From NCBI GenBank assembly GCA_024636785.1, contig JAGXGK010000015.1, positions 62,001-126,000 on the forward strand: DNA of 64,000 bases, read 5' to 3'. The position numbers and the translations under genes were made by a program. Below, piece after piece: positions 5,669 to 38,606 of this stretch. This DNA is from Gammaproteobacteria bacterium. GTDB lineage: Bacteria; Pseudomonadota; Gammaproteobacteria; SZUA-229. Numbering within the stretch: position 1 is the stretch's first letter; every line of letters begins with the position of its first letter. A model generated the notes under the pieces. That model was not told the DNA's origin and made no database searches. It saw only the letters and a program-made list of their open reading frames with translations.

Positions 5669-6985
5669 TCAATCAATTTCCAGTTTTTCCAGCCGGTAGC
5701 GTAACTGCCTCAGGCTGAGCCCCAGGCGTTTGGCGGCGGCGGTTTTGTTCCAGCGGGTTTCTGTCAGGGCCTGGATGATAGCGATTTTCTCCTGCCCGGC
5801 TAAATTCATGCTGCCGGGAATCTCGCTGGTCTCCGTTATCGGCCGGGGTTTCAGGTGCAGGTCGTGAGCGGTGATGACGTTCTTCTCGGCCATGGCCAGG
5901 GCGCGTTCCAGAATATTTTCCAGTTCGCGGATGTTGCCGGGAAAGTCGTAGTCGCTGAGCGCCGAGAGCGCGCTGTCATCGAGGCGGGGGGCTGAATTCA
6001 GTGCCGATTTCTCCGCCAGTGTTTGCAGTATCTGTTCGGCGAGCGGGGAGATGTCTTCGGCGCGTTCGCGCAGGCTGGGCACGCAGAGGTCTATGACATT
6101 GATGCGGTAGTAGAGGTCTTCCCGGAAGCAGCCGTCTTTGACCTGCTCAGCAAGATCCTTGTGGCTGGCGCTGAGGATGCGAACGTCCACCGGGATTTCG
6201 TGCGAGGTGCCTAGCGTGCGTATGGCTTTTTCCTGAATGGCGCGCAGCAGTTTCACCTGCATGTGGGTGGGCAGTTCGGCGATTTCATCGAGAAACAGCG
6301 TGCCGCCCCCGGCGGCCTGAAACAGGCCCTGTTTGTCGGCAGTGGCGCCGGTAAAGCTGCCCTTGATGTGGCCGAAAAATTCACTTTCCATCAGTTCCGC
6401 CGGGATCGCGCCGCAGTTCACCGGCACAAAGGGAGCCTCGGCGCGGCTGCCCTGCTCGTGAATCATTCGGGCCACGCGCTCCTTGCCGGAACCCGATTCA
6501 CCATGAATAAACACCGGCGCCTGGCTGCGGGCCAGCTTTTCGATCTGCTTGAGCAGCTGCTTAACCTGACTGGAGTGGCCGGTAATGGTGGTCGCGGTTG
6601 CCGGGTTCTGCTCAATGGTGCCGGATTTGGTGGCCGCTGAAATCAGGTTGCGCAGAATGTGGATATCGACCGGTTTGGAGACAAAATCAAAAGCCCCGGC
6701 TTTTAGCGCTTTTACCGCTGATTCCATATTGCCGTGGGCGGTGATGACGGCGATGGGCAGGTTGGGAAGATTGGCCTGGACATATTCAACCAGCTCGATG
6801 CCGTTGCCATCAGGCAGATGCATGTCGGTCAAGCACAGATCAAAGGTTTCTTTTTTCAGCAGCGCATAGGCACTGGCGACGGTATAGGCCGATCGGGTTT
6901 GAAAGCCCATGCGCATCAGGGTGATCTCAATCAGCTCACAGATGTCGGGTTCATCGTCGATGATGAGCACATGTTTGCTAGCCAT
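5669..6985 (-). CDS. pilR: Sigma-54-dependent response regulator PilR
   Basis: 438 residues with NtrC-type architecture. The receiver domain (about 5-120) has the acidic pair DD at 10-11, phospho-acceptor Asp54 in LTDMHLPDGNG, and Lys in SKPVD. The AAA+ domain (about 140-370) has Walker A GESGSGKE, the sigma-54 contact loop GSFTGA (usually GAFTGA) and FLDEIAELP. A Fis-type helix-turn-helix ends the protein (AAAKRLGLSLRQLRYRLEKL). PilR with PilS activates pilin transcription. It follows pilS by 2 bp, and a sigma-54 promoter lies before the neighbouring pilin gene. A family A repeat separates the two. Confidence 0.95.
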   Translation of the reverse strand: MASKHVLIIDDEPDICELIEITLMRMGFQTRSAYTVASAYALLKKETFDLCLTDMHLPDGNGIELVEYVQANLPNLPIAVITAHGNMESAVKALKAGAFDFVSKPVDIHILRNLISAATKSGTIEQNPATATTITGHSSQVKQLLKQIEKLARSQAPVFIHGESGSGKERVARMIHEQGSRAEAPFVPVNCGAIPAELMESEFFGHIKGSFTGATADKQGLFQAAGGGTLFLDEIAELPTHMQVKLLRAIQEKAIRTLGTSHEIPVDVRILSASHKDLAEQVKDGCFREDLYYRINVIDLCVPSLRERAEDISPLAEQILQTLAEKSALNSAPRLDDSALSALSDYDFPGNIRELENILERALAMAEKNVITAHDLHLKPRPITETSEIPGSMNLAGQEKIAIIQALTETRWNKTAAAKRLGLSLRQLRYRLEKLEID

Positions 6986-6987
6986 AG

Positions 6988-8652
6988 TTAGTGTGGGTTT
7001 TCCATGATCTGCTGTTTTTGTTCCTGAATAGCCGGGCCCCGGGTCGGTAAAAAATAAATTCTGAAGCAGCTGCCATTATCAGGTCGGGCAATGTGTTTGA
7101 TTTTAGCACGATTGTTTTCCGCCATTTCTTTGATGATGTACAGCCCGAGGCCGGTGCCTTCGCCGCTGGTGGTGTAAAAAGGCTCGAAAATGTGAGCCTC
7201 GATGTCTTCAGCGATACCCTGGCCGTTATCGATAATATCGATCACAGGTTGCTGCGTCTGCTCAGCAATGCTTGCATGCAGTTTGATGCTGAGCTGAGAA
7301 CTGTCGAGACCGGAGTGGTTGACGGCATTGGCGCATAAGTTCCAGAAAATCTGATAGAGCTGATCGGGATCGAATAATATAGCGATTGATTCCGGCATAA
7401 CCTTGATTTCTATCTGCTGCGCATTCATGCCATGGGAAGGGCAGAATTCTCGTTTGAATTGATCCAGCCAGCTCTTCAGGTTGATGATTTCAGGTTTGTG
7501 CGCGGGTTTTCGCGAGAGCTGCAAGACGTTGTTGACGACGCCATTGAGCCGCTGGGTGTGAGTGATAATAATGCGGGCCAGTTTTAGATTCCCCGGCTCA
7601 GCGGTGGACTCTTCCAGTAATTGCGAGGCGTGTTGAATGGCCGCCAGAGGGTTGCGAATTTCGTGGGCAATGCTGGCGGTGAGTCGTCCCAGCGAAGCCA
7701 GTTTGACCTGCTGGAAACGCTGATTCAGCTGGCTGGCGTCTTCCAGAAAGACCAGTGTCTGTCCCTGTGTGCCGCGGTCTTTTTCGATGGCACTGAATCC
7801 AGGCTGAATGTCGGGCAGGCCATGGCTCTGTTCAATGGGGAGCTGTAAATACTCCTGACTTGTCTGCCAGTCGGTAAAGCGTTCATGCAGGGCAGGCGAG
7901 ATCGTTTTTAACGGCGTCGCGGGGGATAATTGCGCATGCCCCAGAATGCTATCGGCGGCGTTGTTCGACATCAATATGTTGCCCTCGGGCGAGAGCACAA
8001 GAATGCCGGTGCGCATGCTGCGGATAATGTGTTCGTTTAGCTGGGTGGCGGTTTCCAGCTCGCGTCCCTGATTATCGGCCAGTTGCTCGGTATCGCGCAG
8101 CCGGCGTGAAAAATTGGAAGTGATAAAAGCAAAGCCGAAGATAACCAGCCCCAGAATACCGGAAGGGACATAGCTGGGCTGGAATTCCGGGATAACCAGT
8201 TGTGAATAGATTTGACTGCCCAGAATCGCCAGCGTGGCCACGGCGGCAAAGAGCAGGGTGAGCTGCCGGGGCATGAACAGACTTGTCATGGAAATGTTGA
8301 TGATCAGTAGCATTCCCAGCCCGGATTTTACGCCACCAAAGGCGTGCATTAAAAGCGTGATGGCCGCAATGTCTATACATGTCAGGACGATGGCCTGCGT
8401 TTTCAGGCCGGGTTTCTGCCGATGAATAAAGGCAATGAAAACCACGAACGAGGAGAGATAAAACAGGGCGGCGATAGAAAACAGAAGCGGCTGAAAATCG
8501 CTGGCGGGGACGAGCATCTCTACCCAGTCATTCAGATATACCACCAGAAGAAATAGCGCCAGTGTGCCCCGGTAGTAATTAAACTGACGAAGTCGATGCC
8601 AGCCCGGATTGGGCGGTGCGGGGATAGCGGTATGCGGGTTGGCTGTAATCAT
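6988..8652 (-). CDS. pilS: Membrane sensor histidine kinase PilS
   Basis: 554 residues. Six hydrophobic helices lie in about 28-190, then a PAS domain (about 205-300, IIRSMRTGILVLSPEGN), a HisKA domain with the H-box SIAHEIRNPLAAIQ (phosphorylated His about 330), and an HATPase_c domain with N-box NLCANAVNHS, DNGQGI and GEGTGLGLYI. This is the PilS plan: the membrane part senses pilin level in the bilayer and controls PilR phosphorylation. It is the first gene of pilS-pilR. The start at 8652 gives the expected cytoplasmic N-terminal tail before the first helix. Confidence 0.94.
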   Translation of the reverse strand: MITANPHTAIPAPPNPGWHRLRQFNYYRGTLALFLLVVYLNDWVEMLVPASDFQPLLFSIAALFYLSSFVVFIAFIHRQKPGLKTQAIVLTCIDIAAITLLMHAFGGVKSGLGMLLIINISMTSLFMPRQLTLLFAAVATLAILGSQIYSQLVIPEFQPSYVPSGILGLVIFGFAFITSNFSRRLRDTEQLADNQGRELETATQLNEHIIRSMRTGILVLSPEGNILMSNNAADSILGHAQLSPATPLKTISPALHERFTDWQTSQEYLQLPIEQSHGLPDIQPGFSAIEKDRGTQGQTLVFLEDASQLNQRFQQVKLASLGRLTASIAHEIRNPLAAIQHASQLLEESTAEPGNLKLARIIITHTQRLNGVVNNVLQLSRKPAHKPEIINLKSWLDQFKREFCPSHGMNAQQIEIKVMPESIAILFDPDQLYQIFWNLCANAVNHSGLDSSQLSIKLHASIAEQTQQPVIDIIDNGQGIAEDIEAHIFEPFYTTSGEGTGLGLYIIKEMAENNRAKIKHIARPDNGSCFRIYFLPTRGPAIQEQKQQIMENPH

Positions 8653-22855: not shown

Positions 22856-22896
22856 AAAAGGGGCACAACACCTGTTTAGATGTTGTGCCTTTTTTC
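22856..22896. terminator. Rho-independent terminator, lipoprotein gene side
   Basis: GGCACAACA (22862-22870), a ten-base loop, then TGTTGTGCC followed by TTTTTT, with AAAAG on the left flank. It ends the nadA-lipoprotein transcript and may also stop the convergent cytochrome gene, whose stop codon is at 22937. Confidence 0.85.
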
Positions 22897-22936: not shown

Positions 22937-23593
22937 CTATTTTGCTGAAATCAGGCGGATGTAGCTGATAACATCCTTGATCTCATTTTCTGAGAGCACA
23001 GCTTTCCAGCCGGGCATCAGCGTCGATCCCGAAGTACCATTAGCAATGATCGAGTGCATTTTTTCATTCGATATTTTATTCATGGCACTGGCATCGGTAT
23101 GGTCGGCGGGCTCCATATCATAAAGCCTGGTAATAATGCCTTTGCCTCTGCCGTTACCGTGACAAAGGGTGCAGTAAGCATCATAAACTTCTTTGCCTTT
23201 TAACGGGTTGCCGGAAACGGGGTATTTGGCACTATGCAGATAGCGCACATAGGAAACCAGAGAATCAATTTGGGTATGCGGTATCGCCAGACCCCATTTG
23301 GGCATCGCGCTGGATACTTCGCCATGCGGCGCCGTGCCTTCAATGATCTGGAACAGCTCACGGTCGCTTAATTTTGATAGCTCGGTGTTGTCGGTCAGAT
23401 CGGCGGGTTTGTCTTCCAGCTTGTCGGCGAGCGGGCCGTTGCCTGTGCCATCAGCACCGTGGCAGACAAAACAGTTAGTGCTGAAAATCCGATAACCCTC
23501 CAGGTTTTTTGAAAATTCGGCAAATGCGTTAGATGACAGCAATATTAAAATTGCAAAACATGCAGGTGTTTTCCATACCATAGATTGCTTCAT
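22937..23593 (-). CDS. Periplasmic dihaem cytochrome c
   Basis: 218 residues: a signal peptide of about 25 residues (MVWKTPACFAILILLSSNAFA) and two similar class I cytochrome domains. Domain 1 has CFVCH near residue 41 and the Met ligand region AMPKWG; domain 2 has CTLCH near 140 and LMPGWK. Both domains share the GADGTGNGPL / GNGRGKG glycine loop. It is a small c4-like or tandem c-type electron carrier. Its gene lies 46 bp after the haem-barrel gene in the same direction, the same partner arrangement as cyc2 and the dihaem cyc1 in Acidithiobacillus ferrooxidans, though sequence relation to Cyc1 is not established here. Confidence 0.88.
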   Translation of the reverse strand: MKQSMVWKTPACFAILILLSSNAFAEFSKNLEGYRIFSTNCFVCHGADGTGNGPLADKLEDKPADLTDNTELSKLSDRELFQIIEGTAPHGEVSSAMPKWGLAIPHTQIDSLVSYVRYLHSAKYPVSGNPLKGKEVYDAYCTLCHGNGRGKGIITRLYDMEPADHTDASAMNKISNEKMHSIIANGTSGSTLMPGWKAVLSENEIKDVISYIRLISAK

Positions 23594-23639: not shown

Positions 23640-24914
23640 TTAAAAACCGGCAAACAGCATCAGCATTGCATAGTCAGCACCCGCGGCGTCACTGTCGGAG
23701 TCGACTGCGTACAGCTCAAATTTTATATTCTGCGCCGCCAGATATTGTGCGCCCAGCGTGGTTTCGGCTGTGGTGTCGGCGAGCTTTTTCGAAGCATGCG
23801 CGAGGTATATCGAGGTTCCGGCCATTACTTCCAGCTTGGCCAGCAGACCATAGGCGGTGGCATCATCTACAAGATCACTATTGTAGAAGTTTGTTTCTGC
23901 AGCGGTGCTCTTAGGAGCAACGCCGTAACTGGCATAAATGCCCAGCGGCATGCTGCCTGCCATACCCTGCAGCTGTGCATCCAGACCCCAGCTATCGACA
24001 AAAGTCTCAGTGGCCGGGTCAGTTTTACCTGTCTCGACACTGCCGGTCATCATCGATACGCCAAACCCTGTATCCCAGCCACCGATGTTCGGGGTATAGC
24101 CGGCTCTGACGTAGTGCGCCAGACCGCCCAGTATATCGGCATGAACATTGCCCCAGGTAGGTGTCCAGTGGGAGTAATTAACAAACCATTCGGGTGATTT
24201 ATAAACAAAGGCGATACCGGTGGCTTCACCTGAAGCGGTGCCCAGCGCCTGAGCAGCGCTGAAGCCCTTGCGATTTTCTATCGGACGCTGCGAGCGCTGT
24301 ATGCCGGTGTTGAGCATTTCAAAACCATAACCTACACCCAGTCCATCGGTTGAAAAGGGAATAATGGCGAAGCTGTCACCCACGGCGAAATGGAACTTGG
24401 TAGAGAGGAAGTTGCCGGTGGCTTCACCTGAGCCAGTATCTGCGGTACAGGTTGTCGCATCAGCCGGGTTAGTACAGGTCAACGAACCATCACCGGTATC
24501 AGCTTCCTGCGGCCCCATGCCCAGTTCCATCAGGAAACCGATATTTTCCGAGGCGCGGCCACCGACCAGCAGTGCCGCTTCATCCGGCCACTGGATCTCA
24601 CCGCGGTTACGGTCATCGTTATCTTTTAACTGGTAACGGAGTTTGGTGATAACTGAAACATTCAGTGTTGAAGGTAAGGAGAGATTCTCGCCTTCGATCA
24701 TTGGCTGTGCGCCCTGCATGGTGTAACCATCGGCGCGAAAACTACGGCCAAAAGAGTTAAGTGCGGGAAAACTTTGATAATGACAGCCCATGCAAGGCAT
24801 GCTTGTCTGTCGTGAAAATGCCGGCACGGCATCGGCGGTTTTCGAAATTAGAAAAGTGGAAAATATAATGCTCAGGCTGGCGAGATAAAAACTCGCTGTT
24901 TTCATGTGTCGCAT
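23640..24914 (-). CDS. Outer-membrane fused monohaem cytochrome / beta-barrel, Cyc2-like
   Basis: 424 residues. A signal peptide ends near Ala29, then directly AVPAFSRQTS, a single haem site CMGCH (Cys41, Cys44, His45) and YQSFPALNSFGRSFRADGYT. After about residue 75 the sequence alternates polar and aromatic or hydrophobic residues in barrel-like strands and ends in a terminal Phe (LMLFAGF), the outer-membrane sorting signal. This plan, a tiny N-terminal haem domain plugged into a roughly 16-strand porin, is that of Cyc2, the Fe(II) oxidase of neutrophilic and acidophilic iron oxidisers, whose N-terminal signature is of the form A-P-FARQTG--C--CH----P-L--FGR-FK--GY. Iron as the donor is inference. 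GAGGAAA precedes the ATG by seven bases. Confidence 0.7.
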   Translation of the reverse strand: MRHMKTASFYLASLSIIFSTFLISKTADAVPAFSRQTSMPCMGCHYQSFPALNSFGRSFRADGYTMQGAQPMIEGENLSLPSTLNVSVITKLRYQLKDNDDRNRGEIQWPDEAALLVGGRASENIGFLMELGMGPQEADTGDGSLTCTNPADATTCTADTGSGEATGNFLSTKFHFAVGDSFAIIPFSTDGLGVGYGFEMLNTGIQRSQRPIENRKGFSAAQALGTASGEATGIAFVYKSPEWFVNYSHWTPTWGNVHADILGGLAHYVRAGYTPNIGGWDTGFGVSMMTGSVETGKTDPATETFVDSWGLDAQLQGMAGSMPLGIYASYGVAPKSTAAETNFYNSDLVDDATAYGLLAKLEVMAGTSIYLAHASKKLADTTAETTLGAQYLAAQNIKFELYAVDSDSDAAGADYAMLMLFAGF

Positions 24915-36243: not shown

Positions 36244-37092
36244 TTATTTGCGTAAGCTGGGTCCATTGACTTCAAGACCATTACTCATATAAGTATGGAA
36301 ATATTCCAGAGCCTTGTATTCATCACTTTGTGCCGCGAATGGCTTGGCGCGTACCTGTTTGTTACAGCCACCATAACGACGGTGCAGGGTGCCCATACCA
36401 TCGCCACCAACAGCGGCCCATTTGTTACGATAAACAGGGAAGCCGGTTGGTTGCCCCAGTGCAGGGCTGAGAATGTCCGCACGGATTTTTTTGCCCGGGT
36501 TGTAGTAATGGCAGTCTGCGCATGACATGTTTAGCTGACCACGTTTAGCATAGAAATGTTTTTTACCACGGTTGTAAGCGTCCATTGCGGCTGCGTCATT
36601 GGGAATTTTCACGTCCAGCTTATTACCTCTGGACATGTACGCAAGGTAAGCGCCAACATAAGCAATTTTACCTTTTTTCCAGCCGAATGGTTTTTCGCCA
36701 TTGTCAGTCAGACACTTGTTAATGTCGCCCTCAAGGGTAACAACTTCACCGGAGGCAGTGTCGAATTTAGGGTAGTTCTGACGAACGCCCTTTCTATAGT
36801 CAGGAAAGCAGGTAGCAAAGCTTTTGCCATTCGCAAATTTCTTGTTGAATAAATCTTCACCTTTGGAGATGTAAATCTCATAAGGGGGAAATTCTTCGAA
36901 CTGTTCCCATTGTGCGCGAGAAGCTTCATCGACGGAATAAACCCCGTTAATGAAGTCATCTACAGGTACTTCGGGAAACATATTGGTAAAATGCGAGCGG
37001 AATTCTTTCAGGTCGCTTTCTGGTGATGCTTGCGCCACCATGGGGGTGGCGATCATCAGCAAGACAGTCAATGCTGCTAAGTTTTTTTTCAT
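36244..37092 (-). CDS. soxA: Sulfur-oxidation cytochrome SoxA, single-haem type
   Basis: 282 residues with a signal peptide ending at AQA. One haem motif, CADCH, sits in the second cytochrome domain. The catalytic cysteine that becomes a persulfide ligand is in RRYGGCNKQVRAKPF. The first domain has lost its haem site: FATCFPDYRKG carries one of two Cys likely to form a disulfide with INKCLTD. SoxA with SoxX attaches thiosulfate to the carrier SoxY. Last gene of soxXYZA, 34 bp after soxZ, followed by a strong terminator. Confidence 0.95.
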   Translation of the reverse strand: MKKNLAALTVLLMIATPMVAQASPESDLKEFRSHFTNMFPEVPVDDFINGVYSVDEASRAQWEQFEEFPPYEIYISKGEDLFNKKFANGKSFATCFPDYRKGVRQNYPKFDTASGEVVTLEGDINKCLTDNGEKPFGWKKGKIAYVGAYLAYMSRGNKLDVKIPNDAAAMDAYNRGKKHFYAKRGQLNMSCADCHYYNPGKKIRADILSPALGQPTGFPVYRNKWAAVGGDGMGTLHRRYGGCNKQVRAKPFAAQSDEYKALEYFHTYMSNGLEVNGPSLRK

Positions 37093-37126
37093 GGTTCACC
37101 TTCTTGTGTGGTTGTGCCGGTTATTA

Positions 37127-37456
37127 TTATCTGCGTCTAGTAGGTATTTCAAACTCACCGGAGTCTTTTTCACCTGTATTATCCACCCAGCTTATTTTGA
37201 TAGTGTCACCGTCATTGGCGCCACTAAATGCAAACTTCAGGTATGGGTTGGTGGAAATAGAGCCGTTGAGCTCGGCGTCCAGCACAGTATCTCCACTATG
37301 CTCACAAGTAAGATTTTGAATGAACTTGGCGGGAATAAGGTTGCCCTTTTTGTCTTTGCGCAGGCCAGTTTCCATAGGGTGACTGACCAGGCACTTGATA
37401 GTGGCAACGCCTTTTTTAACGCTGGAACGTACTTGAATTGTTGAACTTTTAGCCAT
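37127..37456 (-). CDS. soxZ: Thiosulfate-oxidation carrier subunit SoxZ
   Basis: 109 residues, a beta-sandwich protein without its own signal peptide; it is exported with SoxY. Conserved segments include VKCLVSHPMETGL-type (here IKCLVSHPMETGLRK), LIPAKFIQNLTCEHSGDTVL and DTIKISWVDNTGE. SoxYZ carries sulfur intermediates on the SoxY cysteine. Lies 24 bp after soxY. Confidence 0.95.
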   Translation of the reverse strand: MAKSSTIQVRSSVKKGVATIKCLVSHPMETGLRKDKKGNLIPAKFIQNLTCEHSGDTVLDAELNGSISTNPYLKFAFSGANDGDTIKISWVDNTGEKDSGEFEIPTRRR

Positions 37457-37480
37457 TGTTTTATATCCTCGAATCTTTGA

Positions 37481-37951
37481 TTAACCGCCGCAGCCGCCGA
37501 TGGTGACTTTGACTTGTTGTTTGGTGGTATACAGTTTGCCATCAGCTTTAACGACAGCGATGACATCAGAAGATTTACCCATTTTTATATTGGTAGTAAT
37601 AGCGCCTTCTGTTCTGGGGTTAAGGTTGAATGAGGCCGTTAGAGGCTGTGCATTCTCTTTTACCAGAATGCTGATCGCTTCTGTCTTGGGCAGGCTGCTC
37701 TTAACAGTCACAGTCACAGAGGCACCATTTTCAGCAACATCGGGAGCTGACAATTTTATTTTGTCACTGTCTGCTGTGCTGGCGCTGCCGAAAGCACCGG
37801 TTAAAGCGGCATCGACAGTTTTGGATTCAAATGCGGAAGTATTCCAGGCGGCCAAAACGGCTTTGGGCGTGAGCAGGCCTGCGCTGATGGCCATGCCTGT
37901 TGCACTGGCGGCCAGCGTACTTTTAAGGAGTATTCTACGGTGATGATTCAT
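37481..37951 (-). CDS. soxY: Thiosulfate-oxidation carrier subunit SoxY
   Basis: 156 residues. A twin-arginine signal (HHRRILLKST) fits export of folded SoxYZ by the Tat system. The C-terminus ends VTIGGCGG, with the swinging-arm cysteine that holds the sulfur intermediates. Core similarity to SoxY is clear (FNLNPRTEGAITTNIKMGKS region). Eighteen bp after soxX. Downstream SoxB, which releases sulfate from SoxY, is not in the window. Confidence 0.96.
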   Translation of the reverse strand: MNHHRRILLKSTLAASATGMAISAGLLTPKAVLAAWNTSAFESKTVDAALTGAFGSASTADSDKIKLSAPDVAENGASVTVTVKSSLPKTEAISILVKENAQPLTASFNLNPRTEGAITTNIKMGKSSDVIAVVKADGKLYTTKQQVKVTIGGCGG

Positions 37952-37969
37952 TATTTTACCTCAAGCTCT

Positions 37970-38344
37970 TTATAGTGTGTAGATGAATTTAGTGACCAGT
38001 TCCAGTTCTTTGGCGGAAAGTACTTCATGGGGGCCAAAGGGAATCATAATCGTATTCGGATTATTTATGCGAGCATCATAAATCTGAGCTCTCAGTTTTT
38101 CGTAATCCGGAAATCTTGCTTTCATTGCAATCAGGGGTGGCCCAATATTACCGGGGAGATCACCGCCTTCTATAGCGTGGCAAGCTAGGCAATTACCTTT
38201 TTTTCTGTCGAATGACAGTTTCTTTCCTTCGGCAATATCTGCATCATCTGCAGCATTAACAGAAAGCGGCATTGCCATACCAAGGCAGGCGACTAACGTG
38301 GCTACCGAAACGGTAGTTGATATTTTATGCATATAACCTTGCAT
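37970..38344 (-). CDS. soxX: Sulfur-oxidation cytochrome SoxX
   Basis: 124 residues from the ATG at 38344, chosen over a start 45 bp upstream because GAGGAA lies six bases before it and the signal peptide (MQGYMHKISTTVSVATLVAC to VNA) then begins at once. A single haem motif CLACH, with axial Met in IMIPFGPH. SoxX pairs with SoxA. First gene of soxXYZA; an inverted repeat AGCAA-TAGC-TTGCT at 38486-38499 in the leader may be an operator. Confidence 0.94.
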   Translation of the reverse strand: MQGYMHKISTTVSVATLVACLGMAMPLSVNAADDADIAEGKKLSFDRKKGNCLACHAIEGGDLPGNIGPPLIAMKARFPDYEKLRAQIYDARINNPNTIMIPFGPHEVLSAKELELVTKFIYTL

Positions 38345-38606
38345 TTTCGATTCCTCTTTAAGGTTAGTTAGGAGATCCCTGTCCATCAAAATAGTTCAAT
38401 CCAGTTCTGGTTATCGAAACTAGATATGTTGGAATGATTGTCCTTGTTTAAAAAACATTTATAGCATACTACGTGAAATGCATATAGCAATAGCTTGCTG
38501 CTGTTAAATAACTTTTTTATGCACGGAATAATCTTAGAGGAGATTAGTCGTTGAAGCTGATAAATTAGTACGTTCTAATAAAGTAAATAAGCGTTCTCTT
38601 ATAAAG

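Follow-up and report, generated by a model that had tools for sequence, protein, structure and literature searches.

Can a bacterium equipped to oxidize reduced sulfur also draw electrons from iron, or from some other donor outside the cell? The question is raised by one open reading frame in a 64,000-nucleotide stretch of gammaproteobacterial DNA (the whole stretch analyzed, referred to here as the window), in which the initial annotation recognized the plan of Cyc2. Cyc2 is a single-heme outer-membrane pore, through which iron-oxidizing bacteria draw electrons from dissolved iron.

A fused cytochrome-porin in a sulfur oxidizer

The window lies on contig C16 of the host genome, which comprises 1.94 Mb and is 72.6% complete; this incompleteness makes absences from it weak. 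The features that bear on the question are as follows:

23640-24914, minus strand: cyc2, encoding a 424-aa fused monoheme cytochrome-porin of Cluster 1 type (ORF from ATG, tree, and AlphaFold2 model)
24828-24914, minus strand: signal peptide region (residues 1-29, ending in TADA), from the sequence and an AlphaFold2 helix at residues 2-20 with low confidence at 23-30; the cleavage site is a predicted region only
24723-24830, minus strand: core of the cytochrome domain, with AVPAFSRQT, CMGCH (C41, C44, H45), PAL, and FGRSFRADGY (motif of PMC8406198 and invariant residues)
23640-24659, minus strand: predicted 16-stranded beta-barrel (residues 86-424; AlphaFold2 strands from 86-97 to 415-423; OprP 2o4v, Z 22.5)
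36244-38389, minus strand: soxX-soxY-soxZ-soxA (SoxA and SoxY from hits above cut-off to TIGR04484 and TIGR04488, respectively; SoxX and SoxZ recognized from their sequences and gene order)

The sulfur-oxidizing setting named in the initial annotation is borne out by soxXYZA in the window and dsrA in the genome. The ccoN gene of a cbb3 oxidase lies on the same contig as cyc2, and a RuBisCO gene with a LysR regulator is present in the genome. Four cytochrome d1 domain proteins are encoded within about 14 kb (G000:C34:58306-72412), forming a large cluster of the nitrite reductase type. Taken together, the sox, dsrA, ccoN, RuBisCO, and cytochrome d1 genes indicate a sulfur-oxidizing, probably autotrophic, microaerobic, and nitrite-reducing bacterium.

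The protein starts with MRHMKTASFYLASLSIIFSTFLISKTADA-VPAFSRQTSMPCMGCHYQSFPALNSFGRSFRADGYT and ends in ...YAMLMLFAGF, its final residue being Phe. Its only CXXCH lies behind the N-terminal signal peptide, and the order of parts is signal peptide, AVPAFSRQT, CMGCH, YQSF, PAL, FGRSFRADGYT, and a beta-rich region; the Cyc2 plan described earlier for this ORF (signal peptide, AVPAFSRQTS, CMGCH, and a barrel ending in Phe) was thus confirmed. Relative to the Cyc2 consensus, which consists of AXPXFAR[Q/K][T/Y], CXXCH, and PXL at +4 (PMC8406198), AVPAFSRQT carries one substitution (A34S, giving FSR for FAR), PAL lies four residues past CXXCH (CMGCH-YQSF-PAL), and the 424 aa are within the required length of at least 365 aa. 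Position 34 is Ala in 95% of 92 Cluster 1 rows, and the strict PXFAR filter behind the published Cyc2 tree would exclude the window protein; position 34 is likewise Ser, as FSR or YSR, in Ca. Gallionella acididurans (L076), a Gallionellales MAG (L061), and one Mariprofundaceae protein (L112). Ten cytochrome-domain residues are invariant across the 92 rows (A29, P31, R35, Q36, C41, C44, H45, P50, G56, and F59).

Relatives of the window protein were found at 55 GTDB loci, most of them full-length and 25-70% identical, and 17 positions are invariant among 45 aligned rows, which argues that the ORF is not a chance one. No match was found among Pfam models, NCBIfam models, or PDB sequences, indicating that these libraries lack a representation of the Cyc2 family able to detect this protein. 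Only one cyc2-like copy was found in the host genome (72.6% complete). The plasmid collection yielded N-terminal matches only, at 28-35% identity, in Caballeronia, Paraburkholderia, Ideonella, and Methylocystis.

Family placement and predicted fold

The trees drew on relatives from named GTDB genomes, on the main Cyc2 present in 36 of 41 Mariprofundaceae genomes, on Gallionellaceae (27 of 40), on a phylum sample, and on more distant cytochrome-porins, zetaproteobacterial ones among them, the cluster labels of reference rows being assigned by taxon and by agreement with papers including PMC7029218. In a maximum-likelihood tree of 112 rows, the window protein falls within a gammaproteobacterial clade of eight rows (support 99), which is nested successively in a clade of 20 rows that includes symbionts (98), a 55-row clade joining Gallionellaceae to the gammaproteobacterial rows (98), and an 84-row clade that takes in all Mariprofundaceae main copies (97). 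This last clade includes 24 zetaproteobacterial Cluster 1 proteins, with zetaproteobacterial Cluster 3 separate from it, and the second Mariprofundaceae copy, TPFGR-type proteins, and same-family paralogs all lie outside. Zetaproteobacteria are described as having Cluster 1 copies and, more rarely, Cluster 3 copies (PMC7029218), and the split of the Mariprofundaceae copies in our tree agrees with that account. The placement in a Cyc2 tree that the initial annotation had proposed as a check therefore sets the protein inside the clade of neutrophilic iron oxidizers, apart from the other cytochrome-porin groups.

To ask if the short heme motif drives this placement, a second tree was built from the barrel only, with all residues through 25 past PXL cut off; 64 Cluster 1 rows, the window protein included, stand on one side of a single branch (96/96). 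Over its full length, the window protein is 36% identical to a Gallionella Cyc2 (E 6e-71) and 30% identical to one zetaproteobacterial Cyc2. Its membership in the Cyc2 family, as a genuine protein of the Cluster 1 (neutrophilic) type, is thus supported by sequence comparison.

Other genomes of the host family encode cytochrome-porins that share this N-terminal plan but are of at least three additional kinds (NEFGEQF, NKKGR, and TPFGR types, at L013-L019, L021, L022, L025, L026, L028, and L030; L009, L020, and L024; and L012); none of those included in the tree groups within Cluster 1. In addition, a Mariprofundaceae MAG carries a tandem cyc2 pair (L084:4793-6034 and 7019-8260) with identical Cyc2-profile scores.

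The AlphaFold2 model, computed from the window protein and 44 relatives, has a pLDDT of 85.2 and a pTM of 0.80, and predicts 16 strands of at least eight residues behind an N-terminal helical segment that carries the heme motif. Among solved structures, OprP (2o4v; Z 22.5, rmsd 3.7 over 300 residues) shares the top three places with an OprO mutant (4rjx; Z 22.2) and with OprB, with which both tie. The strand count asked for earlier thus came to 16, in a porin fold near OprP/OprO with the heme segment N-terminal to strand 1. A control Mariprofundaceae Cyc2 modeled by AlphaFold2 likewise has 16 strands and OprO/OprP as its top matches, and a 16-stranded porin with an OprO/OprP-like fold has been reported for Cyc2 of Mariprofundus ferrooxydans PV-1 (PMC8406198).

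Across the 92 Cluster 1 rows, no exception occurs at the barrel sites G126, E130, G291, and N396, and conservation at R270, D312, and Q314 is 96-99%; the window protein retains all seven. R270 and D312 are not specific to Cluster 1, since almost every row of the remaining cytochrome-porin groups sampled has them as well, and E130, invariant within Cluster 1, is mostly Gln in the TPFGR group. These barrel sites are candidates for holding the heme plug or binding Fe(II). The 92 rows contain no second invariant His or Met, so a conserved residue of either kind does not serve as the sixth heme ligand, if there is one.

Like the zetaproteobacterial Cluster 1 proteins, including that of PV-1 (PMC8406198, PMC7029218), the window protein combines a signal peptide, AXPXFxRQT, one CXXCH, PXL at +4, and FGR.F..GY with a predicted 16-strand barrel of OprO/OprP fold and common invariant barrel residues, but it is only about 25-30% identical to them, has FSR in place of FAR, and belongs to a sulfur oxidizer. 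The Gallionellaceae Cluster 1 proteins (PMC10734462) form its sister group in the tree, and some of them share FSR or YSR (L076, L061); unlike the window host, their hosts are freshwater iron oxidizers.

An identity with the MtrAB/MtoAB/PioAB system, which pairs a 26-strand porin with a separate multiheme cytochrome, is contradicted by the single heme and the 16 predicted strands. A search of the host genome (72.6% complete) for the MtrB/PioB porin (PF11854) gave no match.

The diheme cytochrome gene behind cyc2

Two further features lie directly downstream of cyc2:

22937-23593, minus strand: diheme c-type cytochrome of 218 aa, bearing a signal peptide and a pair of CXXCH motifs and separated from cyc2 by 46 bp
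22862-22889, minus strand: terminator-like hairpin of 12 pairs followed by CCTTTTCT, 47 bp past the diheme gene; a consensus match only

The shared strand, the short gap, and the hairpin behind the diheme gene suggest that the two genes may be co-transcribed. In a profile search, CcoP cytochrome domains were among the best solved relatives of the diheme protein. Each of the four same-family genomes that encode a full-length Cyc2 relative has the cyc2-diheme pair, as do 18 loci of the genome scan, where every Cyc2 is at least 45% identical to that of the window; the hosts of these 18 loci are gammaproteobacterial MAGs, Lamellibrachia and Escarpia symbionts, and Thiodiazotropha. Within the flanks covered, the diheme gene is absent from all other scan loci, among them those of Zetaproteobacteria and Gallionellaceae, and other c-type cytochromes occur near cyc2 in some of the loci that lack it.

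Homologs of the diheme gene, 69-73% identical to that of the window, stand without cyc2 in two same-family genomes (G053 and G038), in the latter about 460 bp downstream of a cytochrome d1 gene. These homologs rule out the diheme cytochrome as an exclusive partner of Cyc2, and the pairing is therefore no proof of a dedicated pathway. Given these two genomes, the diheme protein is probably a general periplasmic carrier that has been placed behind cyc2.

A similar arrangement is found in the rus operon of Acidithiobacillus ferrooxidans (cyc2-cyc1-cup-cox-rus, PMC10654088), in which the Cyc2 gene is likewise followed by a diheme c-type cytochrome gene. There, however, Cyc2 is of Cluster 2 and Cyc1 is a cytochrome c4, whereas the window diheme protein resembles CcoP-like Cytochrome_CBB3 domains, and no rusticyanin or cox genes stand behind the window pair. 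The Cyc2 of Ca. Thiodiazotropha (PMC12442345) and of the Lamellibrachia/Escarpia symbionts is closer, sharing the gammaproteobacterial sub-clade, 47-50% identity, and the cyc2-diheme order; the window genome differs from these animal symbionts in being a separate lineage, with a copy 65-70% identical to those of other gammaproteobacterial MAGs.

In three same-family genomes (L192:1436-2716, L193:1244-2582, and L194:182-1433), a conserved ORF rich in histidine and hemerythrin-like in appearance comes after the diheme gene, and at L193 a cytochrome d1 gene lies upstream of the diheme gene.

Upstream of cyc2, matches to Fur-type boxes did not exceed those in shuffled sequences in the regions tested, save for one middling case (L037), the best match to an FNR-type box had two mismatches, and no motif was common to the cyc2 loci tested.

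Electron donors and competing explanations

We consider it likely that this Cluster 1 Cyc2 makes its host a facultative oxidizer of Fe(II) or extracellular electrons, in addition to thiosulfate and sulfide. After export, heme would be attached to C41 and C44 with H45 as its proximal ligand, and the N-terminal domain would sit as a plug in the barrel's periplasmic mouth. The donor, either dissolved Fe(II) or some other small reduced compound, would come into the pore from outside and pass one electron to the Cyc2 heme, from which it would travel by way of the diheme cytochrome to the cbb3 oxidase or the cytochrome d1 nitrite reductase, with part of the electrons sent uphill for CO2 fixation. 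A route from donor through Cyc2 to the periplasm is plausible in this host because its genome has sox, dsrA, cbb3, RuBisCO, and cytochrome d1 genes.

We infer that Fe(II) may be the donor to the window Cyc2. Growth on Fe(II) is known for sulfur oxidizers with cyc2, namely Sulfuriferula (PMC12285272), in which they come closest to Cluster 2, and Sideroxydans ES-1 (PMC8788666). The lucinid study, by contrast, describes oxidation of iron by those symbionts as unproven (PMC12442345). Observations against a role in Fe(II) oxidation are the nature of the named hosts of the gammaproteobacterial sub-clade, which are thiotrophic symbionts of tubeworms and clams, FSR in place of FAR, the lack of iron-specific regulation in the upstream regions tested, and the diheme homologs that stand without cyc2.

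A rather unlikely alternative is that the protein is an electron-uptake porin of the Cyc2 family whose natural donor is another extracellular reductant, so that iron oxidation would be incidental; with the same reserve, metal-sulfide surfaces, humics, electrodes, or small reduced sulfur species could serve as that donor. Sulfur oxidizers and thiotrophic symbionts dominate the sub-clade, Cyc2 of the electroautotroph Ca. Tenderia electrophaga has been linked to electrode oxidation (PMC5371394), and the use of metal sulfides has been proposed for vent-chimney gammaproteobacteria with cyc2 (PMC7329443). Yet every barrel residue conserved in the Cluster 1 Cyc2 of iron oxidizers is retained in the window protein, and a single heme in a narrow pore favors a small dissolved donor (PMC8406198).

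It is quite improbable that the gene is a decaying or non-energetic homolog (e.g., for iron detoxification or metal sensing) that has been kept in sulfur oxidizers by chance transfer. Such an origin would fit its patchy occurrence: the 53 same-family genomes, many of which are incomplete, yielded four intact relatives and a single copy divided between two contigs. It would also fit the cyc2 of two Thiodiazotropha (L039:678-1943 and L053:5947-7211), each in two ORFs, which may be real decay or sequencing error. The window copy and most of its relatives are, however, intact with all invariant residues, and the cyc2-diheme order is maintained in divergent hosts. It is hardly credible that the ORF lies outside the Cyc2 family and encodes an ordinary porin in which CXXCH arose by chance: its low identity to any solved porin and the lack of a Pfam or NCBIfam model would allow this, but it is refuted by the 112-row and barrel-only trees, which place the protein alike with and without its N-terminal domain, and opposed by the full motif context and full-length homology.

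Beyond this single genome, thiotrophic Gammaproteobacteria, symbionts of tubeworms and clams among them, carry a distinct Cyc2 sub-clade. We suggest, tentatively and with more doubt than for the window protein itself, that Cyc2 of this thiotroph sub-clade, with its diheme partner, passes electrons from an outside donor to the periplasm, perhaps to nitrite reductase and cbb3 oxidase, as a second, iron- or mineral-based energy source. If the sub-clade oxidizes Fe(II), iron would supply energy to lineages that are known solely for sulfur oxidation, and cyc2 in tubeworm and clam symbionts would gain a physiological meaning; if it does not, cyc2 would be a weaker marker of iron oxidation than assumed. 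Either outcome bears on the role of Cyc2 outside the known iron oxidizers.

Cyc2 has been published for vent-chimney gammaproteobacterial sulfur oxidizers in 2020 (PMC7329443) and, as orthologs, for lucinid symbionts in 2025 (PMC12442345), so the window protein adds to a known kind. A literature search of limited coverage found no mention of the tubeworm-symbiont copies or of the cyc2-diheme pair. In Lamellibrachia and Escarpia symbionts, a Cluster 1-type cyc2 followed by the diheme gene is present at five loci (L038, L040, L041, L043, and L045, at about 5944-7970).
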